From positions 1,054,001-1,118,000 of the forward strand of contig NZ_JBANDL010000002.1 in the NCBI RefSeq assembly GCF_037027445.1: a stretch of 64,000 nt of DNA, written 5' to 3'. Of this stretch, positions 1 through 8,187 are shown piece after piece. The notes beneath the pieces were generated by a model. It saw only the letters and a program-made list of their open reading frames with translations. It had not been told where the DNA came from and made no database searches. The translations under genes were made by a program, and so were the position numbers. Origin of the DNA: Lysobacter firmicutimachus. GTDB lineage: Bacteria; Pseudomonadota; Gammaproteobacteria; Xanthomonadales; Xanthomonadaceae. Numbering within the stretch: position 1 is the first letter of the stretch; every line of letters starts with the position of its first letter.

Positions 1-10
1 GGCTGACCCG

Positions 11-45
11 TCGCGCGGCGTGCGCGAAGCGGTTACAGTGTGGCC
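11..45 (+). promoter_or_regulatory. Putative promoter of trpL1-trpE; leaderless start likely
   Basis: TACAGT at 34-39 resembles a -10 box and lies six bases before the leader ATG at 46, so transcription would begin at or next to that ATG. The surrounding stretch AGCGGTTACAGT (28-39) recurs at the same distance from the second trp leader ATG (4733-4744). A TCGCGC at 11-16 is also shared at about the right -35 distance but is not a consensus -35 box. The promoter role is inferred from position and from conservation between the two copies. Confidence 0.5.
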
Positions 46-189
46 ATGAACGCCTGGGCGAACCCGCACTCCTTCTGCGCCGACGTGGGTTGGCGATGGT
101 GGCCGTCGGCCATCGTCGCTCCTGCCCACTCGCCCATGAAGGAACCGCCGCGTGATCTCGCACGAACTCTTCCAGCAGCAAGCCGCTAA
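46..189 (+). CDS. trpL: Tryptophan leader peptide upstream of trpE (trpL1)
   Basis: This 47-codon ORF begins at ATG 46 and ends at TAA 187-189, inside trpE in another frame. It has Trp at codons 4, 16, 18 and 19, with the run Gly-Trp-Arg-Trp-Trp at 15-19. Four Trp codons in 47, placed immediately before trpE, are the classic signature of a tryptophan-sensing leader. The ORF covers the trpE Shine-Dalgarno and GTG start, so its translation must interfere with trpE initiation unless ribosomes stall at the Trp run. It has no Shine-Dalgarno of its own, consistent with a leaderless mRNA; leaderless trpL is known from Sinorhizobium meliloti. The second leader at 4751 has exactly the same length, which supports it being real. 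Expression is not proven by sequence alone. Confidence 0.75.
92..120 (+). promoter_or_regulatory. Hairpin over the Trp codons of trpL1
   Basis: GGCGATGGTGGCC pairs with GGCCATCGTCGCT across a three-base GTC loop: 13 pairs including three G-U wobbles. The 5' arm holds the Trp codons 97-99 and 100-102, and Trp codon 91-93 sits at its base. A ribosome stalled there would prevent the hairpin from forming. No T tract follows it, so it is not an intrinsic terminator. An equivalent, weaker hairpin lies in the second leader (about 4802-4823). Confidence 0.55.
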
Positions 190-1627
190 CGGCTACACCC
201 GCATCCCGGTCGTGCGCGAGGTGCTGTCCGACCTCGATACGCCGCTGTCGGTCTACCTCAAGCTCGCCGACGGCCCGCATACCTACCTGTTCGAATCGGT
301 CGAAGGCGGCGAACGCTTCGGCCGCTACTCGATCATCGGCCTGCCGGCGCAGCGCGTGTACGCCTTCGCCGGGCATACCCTGTTCGTCACCGAGCACGGC
401 GAACTGGTCGACAGCCGCGTGGTCGAGGACCCCTTCGCCGAAGTCGAACGCCTGCGCACCGAGTACCAGGTGCCGAAGATCGACGGCCTGCCGGGCTTCA
501 CCGGCGGCCTGGTCGGCTGGTTCGGCTTCGAGTGCGTGCAGTACATCGAGCGCCGCCTGGCCGGTGGCGAGAAGCCCGACGAGCTGGGCACGCCCGACAT
601 CCTGCTGATGCAGAGCGAGGAAATCGCGGTATTCGACAACCTCAAGGGCCGGCTGTACCTCATCGTGCACGCCGATCCGCGCGAGCCGCAGGCCTTCGCC
701 CGCGCCAACCGCCGCCTCGACCAGCTCGTGCACCGCTTGCGCATCGGCGGCGCCAGCTACCCCGAGACGCTCGATCCGGCCGGCCTGGACGAGGGCGACT
801 TCGTTTCCGGCTTCACCCGCGAAGGCTTCATCGAGGCGGTGGAGAAGTCCAAGGAACTGATCCGCGCCGGCGACATCTTCCAGGTGGTGCTGTCGCAGCG
901 CCTGAGCGTGCCGTTCAAGGCGCGCCCGGTCGACGTCTATCGCGCCCTGCGCGCGCTGAATCCGTCGCCGTACATGTATTTCCTCGACGTCGGCGGCACC
1001 CAGGTGGTCGGTTCGTCGCCGGAGATCCTGGTGCGCCTGCAGGACGGCGAAGTCACCGTGCGCCCGATCGCCGGCACCCGTCCGCGCGGCAAGACGGTCG
1101 AGGAAGATCACGCGCTGGAAGCCGAGCTGCTGGCCGACCCCAAGGAGCGCGCCGAGCACCTGATGCTGATCGACCTCGGCCGCAACGATGTCGGCCGGGT
1201 GTCCGAAGCCAGCACGGTCGAAGTCGGCGAGCAGTTCGTGATCGAGCGCTACAGCCACGTCATGCACATCGTCAGCGAAGTCACCGGCCGCCTGCAGCCG
1301 GGGCTGAGCTACGCCGACGTGCTGCGCGCGACCTTCCCGGCCGGCACGGTCAGCGGCGCGCCGAAGATCCGCGCCCTGGAAGTGATCCGCGAGCTCGAGC
1401 CGGTCAAGCGCAACGTCTACTCCGGCGCGGTCGGCTACATCGGCTGGCACGGCGACGCCGACACCGCGATCGCGATCCGCACCGCGGTGATCCAGGACGG
1501 CCGCCTGCACGTGCAGGCCGGCGCCGGCATCGTCTACGACTCCGACCCGCAGAAGGAGTGGGAGGAGACGATGAACAAGGGCCGCGCGCTGTTCCGCGCC
1601 GTGGCCGAGGCGGCGCGCGGCTTGTAA
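152..1627 (+). CDS. trpE: Anthranilate synthase component I (TrpE)
   Basis: This is the large subunit of anthranilate synthase, which converts chorismate to anthranilate using ammonia from TrpG; it is the first committed step of tryptophan synthesis in the cytosol. The 491 aa length is usual for the family. The N-terminal LFES element (about 48-51) matches the Trp-feedback site. The chorismate-binding half carries [27 protein letters not shown] and [10 protein letters not shown]. The GTG start at 152 is chosen because AAGGA (139-143) lies eight bases upstream and the protein aligns from its first residues. The gene is separated from trpGDC by a two-component system but shares a homologous leader with it, implying co-regulation. 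The upstream leader ORF overlaps the first 38 bases of the gene. Confidence 0.97.
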
Positions 1628-1643
1628 GCGTCGCGCGTGCCCC

Positions 1644-1808
1644 TGTAGGAGCGGCGTCAGCCGCGACCACCCGAAGAGAACGAATACCACCGCAGCCGCC
1701 GAAGCGAGGATGCTTGGCGGCTGTTTCGTTCATGCCCGCGGGCTTGCGGCTTCGGTTTCAGCGCTCGCGTACATCGCTGCGGCTGTCGCGGCTGACGCCG
1801 CTCCTACA
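1644..1808. repeat. TGTAGGAGCGGC repeat, copy 1
   Basis: This 165-base unit begins TGTAGGAGCGGCGTCAGCCG and ends with the inverse complement (CGGCTGACGCCGCTCCTACA), giving terminal inverted repeats of about 24 bases. The interior contains CCGCCGAAGC and TGCTTGGCGGC, a second partial inverted pair. It closely resembles copy 2 and looks like the REP/REPIN-type or MITE-type intergenic elements typical of Xanthomonadaceae and Pseudomonas. No transposase is encoded. Confidence 0.8.
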
Positions 1809-1850
1809 GACGGCCATGCCTCGCGATCGGATGTCCGGGTCGTGTGTTTT

Positions 1851-2016
1851 TGTAGGAGCGGCGCAAGCCGCGACCACCCGAAGAGAACGAATACCACCGC
1901 AACCGCCGAAGCGACGATGCTTGGCGGCTGCTCCACGCCTTGCCCGCGGGATTGCGGCTTCGGCTCCGGCGCTCGCGTACATGGCTGCGGCTGTCGCGGC
2001 TGACGCCGCTCCTACA
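1851..2016. repeat. TGTAGGAGCGGC repeat, copy 2
   Basis: This 166-base unit is in the same orientation as copy 1 and separated from it by 42 bases. It has the same terminal inverted repeats and the same interior, with scattered substitutions (for example GTCAGCC in copy 1 against GCAAGCC here at the left end). Two neighbouring, diverged copies in direct orientation suggest local duplication or repeated insertion. Confidence 0.8.
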
Positions 2017-2169
2017 AAGAACGCGCGGCGCGGTTCGCAGCGCCGGCGGATTAAAAAAAGTTCATGCGCAGGAAAGCTGTGCGGCAGGGGCGAGGGCGCA
2101 ATCTGAGCCGGCGATGGGGACACGCCCCACCGGCCCAGACTCCCAACCCCGAACTGCAAGGAGCTTCCC

Positions 2170-2352
2170 ATGAACGTCCGCAACGCCCTGATCGCCGTCG
2201 CCCTGACCGCGTTCGCCGGTTCCGCTTTCGCTGCCGCGCCGACCACGGCCGCCGGCGCCGCGCCGGCCGCGAAGACGGTCAAGCACGCCCACCACAAGGC
2301 CAAGAAGGCGGCCAAGCCCGCGGCCGCCGCCACGGCGCCGGCGTCGAAGTGA
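2170..2352 (+). CDS. Small secreted Ala/Lys/His-rich protein
   Basis: This 60-residue ORF has a clear signal peptide: MNVRNALIAVALTAFAGSAF followed by an Ala-rich cleavage region near 21-24. The mature part is only about 38 residues, dominated by Ala, Lys, Pro and Thr, with a VKHAHHKAKK cluster carrying three His. AAGGAG (2159-2164) sits five bases before the ATG, and a strong terminator lies 130 bases downstream, so it looks like a monocistronic gene. I do not recognise a named family. Similar short Ala/Lys/His-rich periplasmic proteins are common in gammaproteobacteria and are sometimes guessed to bind metals or acid. It precedes a two-component system, but no functional link can be shown. 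Confidence 0.65.
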   Translation: MNVRNALIAVALTAFAGSAFAAAPTTAAGAAPAAKTVKHAHHKAKKAAKPAAAATAPASK

Positions 2353-2481
2353 GCCCGCGCCGGCCGCCGCCCGGCGCGGATCGTCTCCGTCCGCTGCGCA
2401 CCGCACGACCCCACTGCGTCGGTCGCCGGCCGGCCCGCTCGCCCTGAGCCCCCGAGCCCCACGCATCGTCGGCGTGGGCCC

Positions 2482-2512
2482 GATGCCCCGCCGGCCGAGC
2501 CGGCGGGGCATC
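2482..2512 (+). terminator. Rho-independent-like terminator after the small secreted gene
   Basis: GATGCCCCGCCGG and CCGGCGGGGCATC form a perfect 13-base stem with a CCGAG loop, followed by a weak T patch (GCCTTTGC). Confidence 0.65.
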
Positions 2513-2604
2513 GCCTTTGCGTCGCGGCTGATTTACCTCGCGGCCTCGACGGGCGGCGTATCCTGTCGCCGTCCTTGTTGCGCCGTCGCGAGTCCGGAGT
2601 CGGC

Positions 2605-3279
2605 ATGCGCGTCCTGATCGTCGAAGACGACCCCCATACCGCCGGTTTCATCGCCAAGGGCTTGCGCGAGGACGGCCATGCGGTCGACCACGCCGACAAC
2701 GGCAAGGACGGCCTGTTCCTGGCCACCACCGACCCCTTCGACGCGATCGTGCTCGACCGCATGCTGCCCGGGCTGGACGGCATGACCGTGCTGCAGACCC
2801 TGCGCGGCGCCGGCAACCGGGTGCCGGTGTTGCTGCTGACCGCGCTCGGCGAAATCGATCACCGCGTCGAAGGCCTGCGCGCCGGCGCCGACGATTACCT
2901 GGTCAAGCCCTTCGCCTACGCCGAGCTGTCGGCGCGGCTGGACAGCATCGCCCGCCGCGGCCAGGCCGGCGGCAGCGAGCCGACCCGGTTGCGGGTGGCC
3001 GACCTGGAACTGGACCTGCTCAGCCGCGAAGCGCGCCGCGGTGACAAGCGCATCGAGCTGCAACCGCGCGAGTTCCGCCTGCTCGAATACCTGATGCGCC
3101 AGGCCGAACGCGTGGTGACCCGGACCATGCTGCTGGAAGCCGTGTGGGACTACCACTTCGATCCGCAGACCAACGTCATCGACGTGCACATCAGCCGCCT
3201 GCGGCAGAAGATCGACCAGGGCTTCCCGCGCCCGCTGCTGCACACCGTGCGCGGCGCCGGCTACCGGCTCGGCGCATGA
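2605..3279 (+). CDS. OmpR/PhoB-family response regulator
   Basis: This 224-residue DNA-binding regulator is activated by phosphorylation from the kinase encoded immediately downstream. The receiver domain (1-115) has acidic residues D8 and D9, the phospho-acceptor D51, T79 and K101. The C-terminal winged-helix Trans_reg_C domain (about 125-224) ends with the typical VWDYHFDPQTNVIDVHISRL pattern. The start ATG 2605 is preferred over an upstream TTG (2575) because the conserved receiver fold starts there. It overlaps the kinase by four bases (ATGA), so the two are translationally coupled. The stimulus cannot be inferred from the sequence. Confidence 0.93.
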   Translation: MRVLIVEDDPHTAGFIAKGLREDGHAVDHADNGKDGLFLATTDPFDAIVLDRMLPGLDGMTVLQTLRGAGNRVPVLLLTALGEIDHRVEGLRAGADDYLVKPFAYAELSARLDSIARRGQAGGSEPTRLRVADLELDLLSREARRGDKRIELQPREFRLLEYLMRQAERVVTRTMLLEAVWDYHFDPQTNVIDVHISRLRQKIDQGFPRPLLHTVRGAGYRLGA

Positions 3280-4634
3280 GCCGCTGGCGGCCGTGGCCGC
3301 GTTCGACCAGCGCGCGGCTGGCGCTGGCGGTGACGGTGTCGTTCCTGCTCGCCTTCGTCCTGCTCGGCGTCGGCGTGCACTACGCGGTGTCGGCGATGCT
3401 GACCCAGGACGCGCGCGAACTGGTGCGGGTCGACGCCGCCGGCCTGGTCGAGTTGTACCGCGACGACGGCCGCGCCGCGCTGCTGAGCGAATTGCGCGAA
3501 CGCATCGCCGGCGACGAGGACCCGGATGCGGTCTACGCCCTGACCGCGAACGACGGCCGCATGATCGCCGGCGATTACCCGCGCTTGCCCAACCATCGCC
3601 GCGGCGCGCGCTGGATCGAATTCACCGAGCGCGACGGCGACGGCGAGCGGCGCGTGGTCGCGCAGTTGCAGCGCCTGCCGGACGGCAGCGTCTTGCTGAC
3701 CGGCACCCGTACCCGCAGCCAGGACCGGTTCCTGGCGCTGATGCTGCGCACGGCACTGATCGCGCTGGCGTTCGCGGCGAGTCTGGGCGCCTTGATCGGC
3801 TGGCTGACCTCGCGCTGGGTGTCGCGCCGGCTGCGCCATCTCGACGACACCGCGGCGCGGGTCGGCCGCGGCGAACTCGGCCTGCGCGCCACCCCCGACG
3901 GCAGCGACGACGCCTTCGACCGGCTCGCGCGCCGCTTCAACGCCATGCTCGACCGGATCGAGGAATTGCTGGGCGGCGTGCGCCACGCCACCGACCACAT
4001 CGCCCACGACCTGCGCACGCCGCTGACCCGGCTGCGCAACCGCCTGGAGGAGTTGCGCGCGCGCGCCCAGGGCGATACCGGCGCGCGCCTGGACGCTGCC
4101 ATCGCCGAGACCGACCAGTTGCTGCAGTCCTTCGGTGCGCTATTGCGACTGGCGCGGATCGAAGCGCAGCCGCCGGTGCACGACGAGCCGGTGTTGGACC
4201 TGGCGGCGTTGGTCGCCGACGCGGTCGAGCTGTACACGCCGATCGCCGCCGAGCGCGGCATCGCATTGCGTGCCGCCGCGGCGGCGCAGGCGCGGGTGCG
4301 CGGCGACGCCGACCAATTGTTCCAGTTGCTGGTCAACCTGCTCGACAACGCGGTCAAGTACGCGCCGCCGGCGACCGAGGTCGAGGTCGCCCTGCGGCGC
4401 GAACGCGACGAAATCGTGCTGGAGATCGGCGACCGCGGCCCGGGCATTCCGGCCGCGGACCGGGAGCGGGTGTTCGACCGCTTCCAGCGCCTGGAGGCGC
4501 ACCGCGGCTCGCCCGGTACCGGCCTGGGCATGAGCCTGGTGCGGGCGATCGCGCACCGCCACGGCGGCCGCATCGCGCTGCTGGATCAGGCGCCGGGGCT
4601 GCGGGTGCGGGTGAGCCTGGCGAACGCGGACTGA
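3276..4634 (+). CDS. Membrane sensor histidine kinase
   Basis: This 452-residue kinase is the partner of the regulator at 2605. It has TM1 at about 13-36, a periplasmic sensor segment of about 110 residues, TM2 at about 150-172, a HAMP linker, then HisKA with the phospho-accepting His244 in HDLRTPL. The HATPase_c domain has an N box (NLLDNAVKYAPP), a G1 box (DRGPGIP) and a G2 box (GTGLGMSLV). The short periplasmic domain has no recognisable ligand fold. It starts at the ATG overlapping the regulator stop. After its stop there are about 100 bases of G-rich sequence before the second trp leader. Confidence 0.92.
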   Translation: MSRWRPWPRSTSARLALAVTVSFLLAFVLLGVGVHYAVSAMLTQDARELVRVDAAGLVELYRDDGRAALLSELRERIAGDEDPDAVYALTANDGRMIAGDYPRLPNHRRGARWIEFTERDGDGERRVVAQLQRLPDGSVLLTGTRTRSQDRFLALMLRTALIALAFAASLGALIGWLTSRWVSRRLRHLDDTAARVGRGELGLRATPDGSDDAFDRLARRFNAMLDRIEELLGGVRHATDHIAHDLRTPLTRLRNRLEELRARAQGDTGARLDAAIAETDQLLQSFGALLRLARIEAQPPVHDEPVLDLAALVADAVELYTPIAAERGIALRAAAAAQARVRGDADQLFQLLVNLLDNAVKYAPPATEVEVALRRERDEIVLEIGDRGPGIPAADRERVFDRFQRLEAHRGSPGTGLGMSLVRAIAHRHGGRIALLDQAPGLRVRVSLANAD

Positions 4635-4680
4635 GGCCGCGGCCTGCGGCCGGCCCGGGCGGCGCCGTACGGTCGGGCCG

Positions 4681-4711
4681 GCGGGGGGCGGAGGGGGGCG
4701 GAGGGGCCGGG
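4681..4711 (+). other. G-rich tract with quadruplex potential
   Basis: Four G runs (six, six, four and three or more) separated by one to three bases lie on the + strand about 30-60 bases upstream of the trpL2 -10 box. The pattern fits a G-quadruplex motif. Whether it matters for the trpGDC promoter is unknown. Confidence 0.5.
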
Positions 4712-4714
4712 CTC

Positions 4715-4750
4715 TCGCGCAGACCCGAGCCCAGCGGTTACAGTAGGGCC
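4715..4750 (+). promoter_or_regulatory. Putative promoter of trpL2-trpGDC; leaderless start likely
   Basis: TACAGT at 4739-4744 ends six bases before the leader ATG at 4751, exactly as at 34-39 before trpL1. AGCGGTTACAGT plus GGCCATGA, with two differing bases in between, is shared by the two sites. TCGCGC (4715-4720) is at roughly the -35 distance in both copies. Confidence 0.5.
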
Positions 4751-4894
4751 ATGATCGTTCGCGCAATTCCGCAGAAATCCGCATGGGCCGGCCTGGGCTG
4801 GCGATGGTGGCGTGCCGCCTTCGTCCCCGCTTCGCCGACCTCCGAGGATTCGCTGCGTGACCCCGCCTACGACCCCCGTCCCGCCGGACGCTGA
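4751..4894 (+). CDS. trpL: Tryptophan leader peptide upstream of trpGDC (trpL2)
   Basis: This 47-codon ORF has exactly the length of trpL1. Trp occurs at codons 12, 17, 19 and 20, with Gly-Trp-Arg-Trp-Trp at 16-20, one codon later than in trpL1. The hairpin GATGGTGG/CCGCCTTC over the Trp codons is preserved with one mismatch. The ORF contains GAGGA (4844-4848) and a GTG (4857) 106 bases from its ATG, the same geometry as the trpE start inside trpL1. It stops at 4892-4894, about 220 bases before trpG. The peptide sequences are otherwise little conserved, as expected for a leader whose function is ribosome stalling. Confidence 0.72.
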   Translation: MIVRAIPQKSAWAGLGWRWWRAAFVPASPTSEDSLRDPAYDPRPAGR

Positions 4895-5129
4895 ATTCCC
4901 CCGCCGCGCCCGCGCCCGCGCGCGCCGCCCCGCCGGTTCCGCGCCGGCCGGAGCCCGCTCCGCTTCCCGTAATTCCCCTCTCCACCGGCCTGCGCGCCGG
5001 CGCGAGCGCGTGCGCCCGTCCGCGGTCGCCGCGTGCGCCGGGTCGCAGCCGGCGCAACCCGCCGCCGGCATCCTGGCCGGCCCGCACCCCGGCATCCTCC
5101 GCATTCGAGGCGCGTCATGTCCGTCCTGA
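4857..5129 (+). CDS. Candidate upstream ORF bridging trpL2 and trpG
   Basis: This 90-codon ORF starts at GTG 4857, with GAGGA eight bases upstream, the exact counterpart of the trpE GTG in the first leader element. It ends at TGA 5127-5129, 13 bases inside trpG. The product is low complexity (Arg, Ala, Pro, Ser) with no domain. The mRNA it crosses is C-rich and G-poor: by hand count, 67 C against 31 G in 4861-4980. I infer that its value may lie in being translated, which would shield the C-rich RNA from Rho and deliver ribosomes to trpG. It could equally be a decaying relic of the duplicated leader. Confidence 0.4.
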
Positions 5130-5698
5130 TGATCGACAACTACGACAGCTTTACCTACAACCTGGTCCAGTACCTGCAGGCGCTGGGCGCGCAGGTGCGG
5201 GTGATCCGCAACGACGAGCTGTCGGCGGACGAGATCGAGCGCCTGGCGCCGGAGCGGATCGTGATTTCGCCCGGCCCGTGCACGCCGGACCAGGCCGGGG
5301 TGTCGCTGGACGTGATCCGCCGACTGGGCGCCACCACGCCGATCCTGGGCGTGTGCCTGGGCCATCAGAGCCTGGGCCAGGCCTACGGCGGCCAGGTGAT
5401 CCGGGCCAAGCGGATCATGCACGGCAAGACCTCGCCGATCCGGCACGAGGGGCGCGGCGTGTTCGCCGGCCTGCCGGACGGCTACGAGGCGACCCGCTAC
5501 CACTCGCTGGTGGTCGAGCGCGAAAGCTTGCCGGATTGTCTGGAGGTCACCGCCTGGACCGAATTCGAGGACGGCGGTTTCGAGGAGATCATGGGGCTGC
5601 GCCATCGCCAGCATCCGGTCGAGGGCGTGCAGTTCCATCCCGAGTCGATCAAGACCGAGCACGGCCATGCCCTGCTGCGCAATTTCCTGCAGCGATGA
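5117..5698 (+). CDS. trpG: Anthranilate synthase component II, glutamine amidotransferase (TrpG)
   Basis: This 193-residue class I glutamine amidotransferase supplies ammonia to TrpE. The [12 protein letters not shown] start, the oxyanion strand SPGPCTP, nucleophile Cys80 ([10 protein letters not shown]), His174 and Glu176 (VQFHPES) complete the catalytic triad. ATG 5117 is chosen over upstream in-frame starts because GAGG (5106-5109) precedes it and the conserved fold begins there. It is the first gene of trpGDC. In many bacteria a single such subunit also serves p-aminobenzoate synthesis; no second pabA-like gene is in the window. Confidence 0.97.
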
Positions 5699-5818
5699 CG
5701 GCGCGCCCGCGCTACTCGGTACGCGACCTGCGCCACGGACGCGACGGCGAACGATGGCGAGGCTGAGCCCGCCGTACCCGCCGACCGCCGCACCGTTCTC
5801 CTACCAGGCCCCGATCCC

Positions 5819-6853
5819 ATGCCCTTGAATCCGCAAGAAGCCCTGCAACGCACCATCGAGCACCGCGAAATCTTCCACGACGAAATGGTCGAGCTGATGC
5901 GCACGATCATGCGCGGCGAAGTTTCGCCGACCATGACCGCGGCGATCCTGACCGGCCTGCGGGTCAAGAAGGAGACCGTCGGCGAGATCGCCGGCGCGGC
6001 CACGGTGCTGCGCGAGTTCGCCCGGCCGGTCGAGGTCGCCGACCGCAGCCATTTGGTCGACATCGTCGGCACCGGCGGCGACGGCGCGCACACCTTCAAT
6101 ATTTCCACCGCGAGCATGTTCGTGGTCGCCGCGGCCGGAGCCAAGGTCGCCAAGCACGGCAACCGCAGCGTCTCGTCCAAGTCCGGCAGCGCCGATGTGC
6201 TGGAGGCGCTGGGCGCGGCGATCGAGCTGCAGCCCGAGCAGGTCGGGCAGTGCATCGAGCGCGCCGGGATCGGCTTCATGTTCGCGCCGGTGCACCACCC
6301 GGCGATGAAGGTGGTGGCGCCGGTGCGGCGCGAGATGGGCGTGCGCACGCTGTTCAACATCCTCGGCCCGCTGACCAATCCCGCCGGCGCGCCGAGCATC
6401 CTGATGGGCGTGTTCCATCCCGACCTGGTCGGCATCCAGGTGCGCGTGCTGCAGGAGATGGGCGCGCAACGCGCGCTGGTGGTGTGGGGCCGCGACGGCA
6501 TGGACGAGCTTTCGCTCGGCGCAGGCACCCTGGTCGGCGAGTTGCGCGACGGGCAGGTGCGCGAGTACGAAGTGCACCCGGAGGATTTCGGCATCGCCAT
6601 GGCCGCCAGCCGCAACTTGCGCGTGGCCGACGCGGACGAATCCAAGGTGCTGTTGCTGCAGGCGCTGGAGAACCGCGACGGCCTGCCGCGCGAGATCGTC
6701 GCGCTGAACTCCGGCGCGGCGCTGTACGCGGCCGGCAAGAGCGAAAGCATCGCCGAAGGCATCGTCCTGGCGCGCCGGGCGATCGCTTCGGGCGCGGCGC
6801 GGGCCAAGCTGGACGAATTCGTCGCGCTGACCCGGGAATTGGCGGGGGCGTGA
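5819..6853 (+). CDS. trpD: Anthranilate phosphoribosyltransferase (TrpD)
   Basis: This 344-residue enzyme transfers phosphoribose from PRPP to anthranilate, the second step of the pathway. The PRPP-binding signature [13 protein letters not shown] (about 84-96), [15 protein letters not shown] and the anthranilate-site region typical of TrpD are present. It lies 120 bases after trpG with no terminator between them, so it is probably co-transcribed. The ATG at 5819 lacks a strong Shine-Dalgarno, but the family N-terminus aligns here. About 200 bases with a degenerate intergenic repeat follow before the next gene. Confidence 0.97.
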
Positions 6854-7054: not shown

Positions 7055-7396
7055 ATGACCGCCCGCTTCGCCCGACTGCCCAGCCCGCCGTACTACGCGG
7101 TGATCTTCAGCTCGCAGCGCAACGGCGAGGACGACCCCGGCTACGGCCAGGCCGCGCAGCGCATGGTCGAGCTGGCCGCGCAGCAGCCGGGTTTCCTCGG
7201 CGTCGAATCGGTCCGCGGCGACGACGGCTTCGGCATCACCGTAAGCTATTGGGCCGACGAGGCGGCCATCGCGGCCTGGAAGCGCCAGGCCGAGCACGCC
7301 GCCACCCGCGCCTACGGGCGCGAACATTGGTACGACCATTTCGAACTGCGCGTGGCCAAGGTCGAACGCGCGTATGGGAGCAAGAGCAGGGCATGA
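7055..7396 (+). CDS. Antibiotic biosynthesis monooxygenase (ABM) domain protein
   Basis: This 113-residue protein has the dimeric alpha-beta ABM fold, recognised by the pattern YYAVIFSS...[16 protein letters not shown]...[19 protein letters not shown]...[20 protein letters not shown]. Members include quinone monooxygenases, haem-degrading enzymes and many uncharacterised stress proteins. GGGAG lies five bases before the ATG. Its stop overlaps the trpC ATG (ATGA), so the two are translationally coupled. No catalytic assignment is possible. Its place between trpD and trpC suggests a role linked to aromatic or indole-type intermediates, but that is inference only. Confidence 0.85.
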
Positions 7397-8187
7397 GCGA
7401 CATCCTCAACACCATCCTGGCGCGCAAGCGCGAAGAGATCGAACAGCGCAGCCGGGTGCGTCCGCTGGTCGACGTGCGCGCGCGTGCGCAGGCGATGCAG
7501 CTGCCGACGCGCGGTTTCGTCGATGCGATCAAGCGCAAGCACGCCGCCGGCGAGGCGGCGGTGATCGCCGAGGTCAAGAAGGCCAGCCCGTCCAAGGGCC
7601 TGATCCGGCCCGACTTCAAGCCGGCCGAGATCGCGCGCAGCTACGAAGCCGGCGGCGCGGCCTGCCTGTCGGTGCTGACCGACGTCGATTTCTTCCAGGG
7701 CAGCAACGCCTATCTCGGCGAAGCCCGCGAGGCCTGCGCGCTGCCGGTGCTGCGCAAGGATTTCACCGTCGATCCGTACCAGATCTACGAGGCGCGCCTG
7801 ATCGGCGCCGACGCGATCCTGCTGATCGTCGCCGCGCTCGAAGACGGGCCGATGATCGAGATGGCCGGCCTGGCGATGGAGCTGGGCATGGACGTGCTGG
7901 TGGAAGTGCACGACATCGACGAGCTCGAACGCGCGCTGCAGACCGACTGCGAGCTGATTGGGGTCAACAACCGCAACCTGCGCACCTTCCAGGTCTCGCT
8001 CGACACCAGCCTGGAACTGCGCAGCGCGGTGCCGCCGGACCGCACCCTGGTCACCGAAAGCGGCATCGCCACCCCGGCCGACGTCGCGCGCATGCGCGCG
8101 GCCGGCATCGAGACCTTCCTGGTCGGCGAAAGCTTCATGCGCGAACGCGACCCGGGCGCGGCGCTGCAGCGGCTGTTCGCGGCGTGA
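7393..8187 (+). CDS. trpC: Indole-3-glycerol phosphate synthase (TrpC)
   Basis: This 264-residue TIM-barrel enzyme closes the indole ring from CdRP. Motifs visible include [13 protein letters not shown] (catalytic Lys), [33 protein letters not shown] and VTESGI. It is a stand-alone TrpC, not fused to TrpF. It overlaps the ABM gene upstream by four bases and the HAD gene downstream by four bases (GTGA), so the three are one translational unit. trpF, trpB and trpA are not in the window. Confidence 0.97.

Follow-up and report, generated by a model that had tools for sequence, protein, structure and literature searches.

Homologous tryptophan leaders as candidate translational switches before the split trpE and trpGDC genes of Lysobacter firmicutimachus, with a putative translated spacer upstream of trpG

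Two tryptophan (Trp) leader open reading frames (ORFs) were analysed in a stretch of 64,000 nucleotides from Lysobacter firmicutimachus (contig NZ_JBANDL010000002.1, positions 1,054,001 to 1,118,000; hereafter the window), one lying before trpE and the other before trpG in the separate trpGDC group. The leaders are real, conserved and homologous. Each is fairly likely to be a Trp-specific translational switch, which at trpE would act on the trpE start itself and at trpG by way of an intervening frame, designated ORF2. This spacer, which appears to be translated, is the surprising part: the switch may have been duplicated from trpE to trpG, with a product-unconstrained cistron evolving between the copied switch and the gene, its frame kept open solely to let ribosomes travel to trpG and keep Rho off, a history that is given an even chance of being right. 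All coordinates refer to the window, and the leader elements, ORF2 and the trp genes lie on its + strand.

The geometry reported in a preliminary description of this DNA was borne out when the sequence was re-read. Both leader ORFs are 47 codons long (46–189 and 4751–4894), TACAGT stands six bases 5′ of each ATG (34–39 before 46; 4739–4744 before 4751), and Gly-Trp-Arg-Trp-Trp is encoded at codons 15–19 of the trpE leader and 16–20 of the trpG leader. A GTG follows at +106 in both (152 and 4857), preceded with eight-base spacing by a Shine-Dalgarno sequence (SD), GAAGGA for trpE (138–143) and GAGGA for the second leader (4844–4848); 17 of the 24 bases around the GTG are identical between the two copies, and a hairpin over the Trp codons was seen in the minimum-free-energy (MFE) fold of both. 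This GTG is the start of the gene at trpE (152–1627), which thus begins within the first leader ORF, the latter extending 38 nt into the gene out of frame, but not at trpG, which starts at ATG 5117. There, GTG 4857 opens a separate frame that had been overlooked, ORF2 (4857–5129, 90 codons), which overlaps the first codons of trpG.

Homology of the two leaders, previously argued from their geometry and matching bases, was corroborated by nucleotide profiles in both directions: a profile built from trpE leaders only matched the window's trpG leader (4713–4859, E=5.7e-21), and one built from the trpG leaders of the genus only matched the trpE leader (E=7.3e-16). The expected conservation in relatives was found within the genus, where the trpE leader with 106 nt to the GTG and the trpG leader with a start codon at +106 were each present in 20 of 20 genomes; beyond the genus, few genomes carry a leader before trpG, and the spacing is not constant. 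A strict pattern search matched 19 of the 20 genus genomes and gave no match in a backward control; the twentieth trpG leader, in G241, has its TACAGT seven bases from the ATG. Because of this difference from the control, and because the trpE-only profile finds the trpG copy, the pattern is regarded as more than chance. A 12-base pattern used without context was uninformative (matches in 297 of 297 genomes). The idea that the trpG leader is an abandoned old trpE leader was ruled out, as single pattern matches in the genus lie before trpG while trpE keeps its own leader in all 20 genomes.

A covariance model built from 30 leaders matched at E 0.001 in 224 of 297 genomes of the family, with 210 matches among the 269 good-quality genomes, and in 38 of 54 genera; these counts refer to elements at any site and include some weak matches. 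In an order-level search of 250 genomes, strong matches were confined to the window's family, with four weak ones outside it (E 4e-5 to 1e-3). Leaders before trpG were found in five of the 54 sampled genera, namely g1, g45, g26, g52 and g19, the last with a short form unlike that of the others; second matches outside these five in 30 two-match genomes (a set that left out G209, G267 and G270) were weak or unlinked. Among nine named relatives (L001–L009: uncultured Xanthomonadaceae, Pseudoxanthomonas, Vulcaniibacterium, Lysobacter xinjiangensis, Xanthomonas, Stenotrophomonas, Luteimonas and Rehaibacterium), seven carry a Trp-run leader before trpE, and none has a WRWW-type run within 700 bases upstream of trpG, where L001 and L008 show a single W-x-W each that is not leader-like. 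The trpG leaders were read in 10 of 12 g45 genomes (not G129 and G247); L192 and L196 gave no leader by regular expression, and L197 and L244 had no trpG in the stretch examined. A short leader tree, for which no support values are quoted, hints at a separation of the g1, g45, g26 and g52 trpG leaders from the majority of trpE leaders.

In 68 family leaders, 13 different distances separate the leader start from that of trpE, all of them 1 mod 3, and the leader ORF extends through the trpE start in 64 of the 68. This set includes related strains, nine further loci gave no leader by regular expression, and the trpE starts were placed by extrapolation from protein matches, by which the frame, though not always the exact base, is determined. 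Insertions and deletions in this interval therefore preserve the frame, as would be expected were leader translation across the trpE start important. In g26, the trpE leaders L193, L194, L195 and L197 end right after WRWWP and do not overlap the trpE start; the trpG leaders read there stay long.

Each of the distinct leaders listed gave one long stem on folding, the base of which is formed by the SD of the second start and a segment immediately 5′ of the Trp codons; the codons themselves sit closer to the tip, on the 5′ side. For the window's trpE leader, the MFE fold pairs the anti-Shine-Dalgarno segment (anti-SD) TCCTTC (70–75) with 138–143 and so sequesters the SD, and a 13-base-pair hairpin, also present in the consensus, lies over the Trp codons (92–120; TGG run from 91). 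In the trpG leader the corresponding anti-SD is AATCC (4776–4780), which pairs with GGATT (4846–4850) over a short core of five base pairs, extended in some relatives to a longer helix; its Trp hairpin occupies 4800–4825 (TGG run from 4799). A swap test was carried out on the family leaders (114 of 116 aligned matches, 104 after removal of duplicates, 29 dissimilar representatives). The duplex formed by each leader's own anti-SD and SD came to −14.20 kcal/mol, against −11.24 (standard deviation 0.44) when partners were permuted, and 0 of 20000 permutations were as low. The two arms co-vary, matching better within a genome than between genomes. Five base pairs, all in the outer helix, have changed on both sides among the genus trpG leaders, and the alignment of these, scored on one member's own fold, did better than its shuffles on cells paired (0/500 shuffles as good), double-change cells (13/500) and covariation score (5/500).

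The SD was unpaired with a probability of 0.11, compared with 0.30 when the upstream part was shuffled, and was the less accessible in 34 of 39 leaders. When a ribosome on the first Trp codon was modelled as a mask, SD accessibility over all leaders doubled, from 0.10 to 0.20; with the 5′ RNA also barred from pairing it reached 0.29, which equals the shuffled level. A rise was obtained in 21 of 21 distinct trpE leaders (14 of 14 from the genus, mean 0.01 to 0.19; 7 of 7 others). A scan of positions 1–5700 found three terminator-like sites where 2.1 were expected, with none between either leader and its gene, and no Rfam leader family matched over either leader at E up to 10; the sole Rfam match was a chance microRNA (E 0.96) on the opposite strand of the first leader. 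The leaders accordingly combine codons capable of stalling a ribosome before the gene with a downstream SD sequestered in a conserved structure, on which the shuffle controls were mixed, and have neither the intrinsic terminator before the first gene nor the Rfam leader-family match of a trpL-type attenuator. The architecture reads as SD sequestration and not as terminator-based.

ORF2 was compared in 34 trpG leaders from four genera (20 g1, 10 g45, 3 g26, 1 g52). It opens with GTG (TTG once) between +100 and +109, in the +1 frame, and extends as far as trpG in all 34: in 33 the trpG ATG is reached without a stop, and in one the stop lies 3 nt ahead of it. The other two frames across the spacer are open in 10 and 0 of the 34. 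In the window the frame ends with TGA (5127–5129), 13 bases into trpG, and a TGA overlapping the first trpG codons is found in 30 of the 34, a conserved stop/start overlap of the kind seen in coupled gene pairs. Where its end is near trpG, ORF2 ranges from 44 to 136 codons. Pooled substitutions are spread almost evenly over the codon positions (0.146/0.149/0.169), and no Pfam match was obtained at E 0.001. In pairs at least 88% identical, seven insertion or deletion events were seen, all multiples of three; gaps not divisible by three occur in alignments of more distant pairs and were read as alignment noise, given that the overall length, except in L094, remains in frame. The frame is therefore described as a putative translated spacer, which appears to be kept open while its amino acids drift freely. 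The spacer is C-rich, with C exceeding G in 34 of 34, and the largest C-excess windows of 260 bases on the window's + strand lie on ORF2; such RNA is what Rho would favour if it were untranslated. A −10-like hexamer, GATAAT, lies inside ORF2 in 25 of the 34 spacers (corresponding to 4857–5116) and is missing in the window's genome, in the same-species G116, in G252 and in six others; it is perhaps the −10 element of an original trpG promoter, overlaid by the copied switch.

Promoter-like motifs precede both leaders at similar distances. The −35-like GTCGCGC at 10–16, with the −10-like TACAGT at 34–39, would serve the trpE leader, and CTCGCGC at 4714–4720, with TACAGT at 4739–4744, the trpG leader. 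All 20 genus trpE leaders have GTCGC at −36 to −38, 14 of the 20 trpG leaders of the genus have a GTCGC- or CTCGCG-like match at −36/−37, and such a motif stands at −36 to −38 in all 14 trpG leaders of g45, g26 and g52; TACAGT or a one-base variant is kept 6–7 bases 5′ of the start codon in nearly all leaders listed. Since TACAGT is so close to the ATG, transcription is predicted to start at or near it, and the leader mRNA, judged by this spacing, is probably leaderless.

From these elements the following mechanism is proposed. A promoter ending 6 nt 5′ of the ATG would yield a leaderless leader mRNA. In it, as folding and the swap test show, the SD of the +106 start is paired with the stretch directly 5′ of the Trp codons, so that the Trp hairpin is enclosed. 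With Trp present, ribosomes would traverse the leader over the SD and start and finish 38 nt beyond; the hairpin would re-close behind them, and the second start would be little used. Without charged Trp-tRNA, a ribosome would halt on WRWW, some 45 nt 5′ of the SD, disturb the helix and leave the start free. The freed start would be that of trpE itself at the first locus. At the second it would be that of ORF2, a frame seemingly without sequence constraint, from which the stop/start overlap would carry ribosomes to trpG; translation of ORF2 would probably also shield the C-rich RNA from Rho. With the same switch at both loci, the split trpE and trpGDC would answer one signal, and their operation as one regulon, as previously suggested, is plausible.

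A number of results weigh against this proposal. In the genus trpG alignment, shuffles were not beaten on the number of double-change pairs (336/500) or on pair types (480/500), the mixed outcome being partly due to one sub-group that uses a shifted register. Folding does not single out the Trp codons, as any ribosome past about codon 5 opens the SD equally. The masked ribosome made the SD more accessible in no more than 5 of the 18 distinct trpG leaders of the genus (mean 0.19 to 0.16; 12 of 18, mean 0.29, with the 5′ RNA excluded), and in the trpG leader of the window species (L087) it lowered it, from 0.25 to 0.15. At the promoters, the −35-like motif was found at its position in 0 of 7 trpE leaders of L001–L006 and L008 and did not turn up in 6 of the 20 trpG leaders of the genus; neither leader promoter was called in a generic sigma-70 scan. 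No Trp run precedes trpE in L007 and L009; 4 of the 68 family leaders, and also L004, are short and stop before the second start; and the g19 trpG leaders (L189, L190, L191) end right after WRWWR, with ORF2 not recognised. The framing of ORF2 has exceptions in L094, L184, L193 and L194, of which one ends 3 nt short of trpG and the other three continue into the gene, and an open frame in a single genome is unremarkable, since shuffled spacers stay open with a probability of 0.14–0.76. Given the little opening in masked folding, dwell time together with physical occlusion of the start by running ribosomes is a more suitable model than a fold with two sharp states, especially at trpG.

Leader peptides with a Trp run ahead of trpE are the classical setting of transcription attenuation, in which the Trp hairpin would compete with an intrinsic terminator before trpE and trpG, and the Marinobacter loci L056 and L068 do carry Trp runs about 137 nt upstream of trpE. 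Such attenuation is nevertheless very improbable here: no terminator-like site was found between leader and gene and no Rfam leader family over the leaders, the leader start is only 106 nt from the trpE start, and the leader ORF crosses the gene start in 64 of 68 cases. That leader and ORF2 translation merely decide on Rho termination in the C-rich stretch, with SD pairing secondary, is rather unlikely. It would account for the C excess in all 34 spacers and for its peak on ORF2 within the window, as well as for the few trpG leaders (5 of 18) opened by stalling, and both effects are coupled in toiL-topAI according to the available part of PMC12121999; the co-varying anti-SD/SD helix and, at trpG, the frame and stop overlap point instead to translation as such, and at trpE there is no spacer.

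The trpG leader might also be an inert leftover of the duplication, with trpG driven by an internal promoter around the GATAAT inside ORF2. The hexamer's presence in 25 of 34 spacers and, again, the few trpG leaders in which stalling opens the SD speak for this, but leader, spacing and ORF2 frame have been retained across the genus, GATAAT is absent from the window's genome as well as from G116 and G252, and its best −35 partner matches at 3 of 6 bases, so that the idea is improbable. That ORF2 encodes a real small protein would agree with a frame that reaches trpG in 34 of 34, yet is scarcely credible in view of substitutions without codon-position bias, a length varying from 44 to 136 codons and the missing Pfam match. 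The translational switch at each leader is thus preferred.

The order of features in the window, all on one strand, is trpE leader, trpE (Pfam PF00425 and PF04715), response regulator (2605–3279), histidine kinase (3276–4634), second leader, trpG (5117–5698, glutamine amidotransferase component, PF00117), trpD (5819–6853, PF00591) and trpC (7393–8187, start approximate, PF00218); trpE is anthranilate synthase component I, and the two regulatory genes were assigned by Pfam. This two-component system (2605–4634) thus lies between trpE and trpG, and its genes are also present, at least partly, at the loci of genera g45, g26 and g52. Just 3′ of trpE, two near-identical repeat copies were found at 1643–2018 (units of 80 nt and 76 nt; 95% and 93%), with inverted arms of 24–26 nt that are 92–100% complementary, resembling a repetitive extragenic palindromic (REP) element or mobile repeat. 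A small Ala/Lys-rich ORF with a start that looks signal-peptide-like by eye lies at 2170–2352 and has no Pfam match.

No description of these leaders was found in a literature search, and an earlier prediction of the trpE leader may exist; trp leaders of Xanthomonads are not mentioned in the accessible parts of PMC2965389, PMC5343134 and PMC2395257, and none of the terms searched is present in PMC10219788. For the Xanthomonadaceae, the analysis adds a predicted amino-acid-specific translational attenuator of trp genes that apparently lacks a terminator and uses a leaderless sensor peptide; it also suggests how the parts of a split pathway can be linked again when the switch is copied. With all codon positions free to change and insertions and deletions in threes, ORF2 offers a natural test case for a frame kept for the act of translation; if the proposal is true, a coding frame has been selected for being translated and not for its encoded product.

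In the transcription attenuator trpL of E. coli, a Trp-run leader peptide with a hairpin over the Trp codons likewise precedes trpE; the leaders described here differ in having no terminator, in SD sequestration and in the overlap of leader and gene. Translational attenuation of the ermC type, in which stalling in a leader frees a sequestered SD, resembles the freeing proposed here, but is induced by a drug, uses alternative hairpins and involves no overlap of leader and gene. The closest amino-acid case is the LEU element before leuA of Actinobacteria, in which, according to the available text, the leucine codons themselves pair with the SD and a pseudoknot or alternative hairpin is formed (PMC1262725). 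There too a run of amino-acid codons lies in a structure that pairs the SD box; phylum and gene are different, and in the trp leaders the anti-SD lies 5′ of the Trp codons. Closest in mechanism is toiL-topAI of E. coli, for which the accessible part of PMC12121999 describes a ribosome stalled in an upstream ORF that alters the structure occluding the downstream ribosome-binding site, repression leading to Rho termination. As far as that account goes, the likeness would lie in upstream stalling that alters the structure over a ribosome-binding site; toiL senses antibiotics at several positions, whereas the trp leaders would read Trp codons before a biosynthetic gene, are probably leaderless, overlap the gene start and, at trpG, have a putative spacer cistron.

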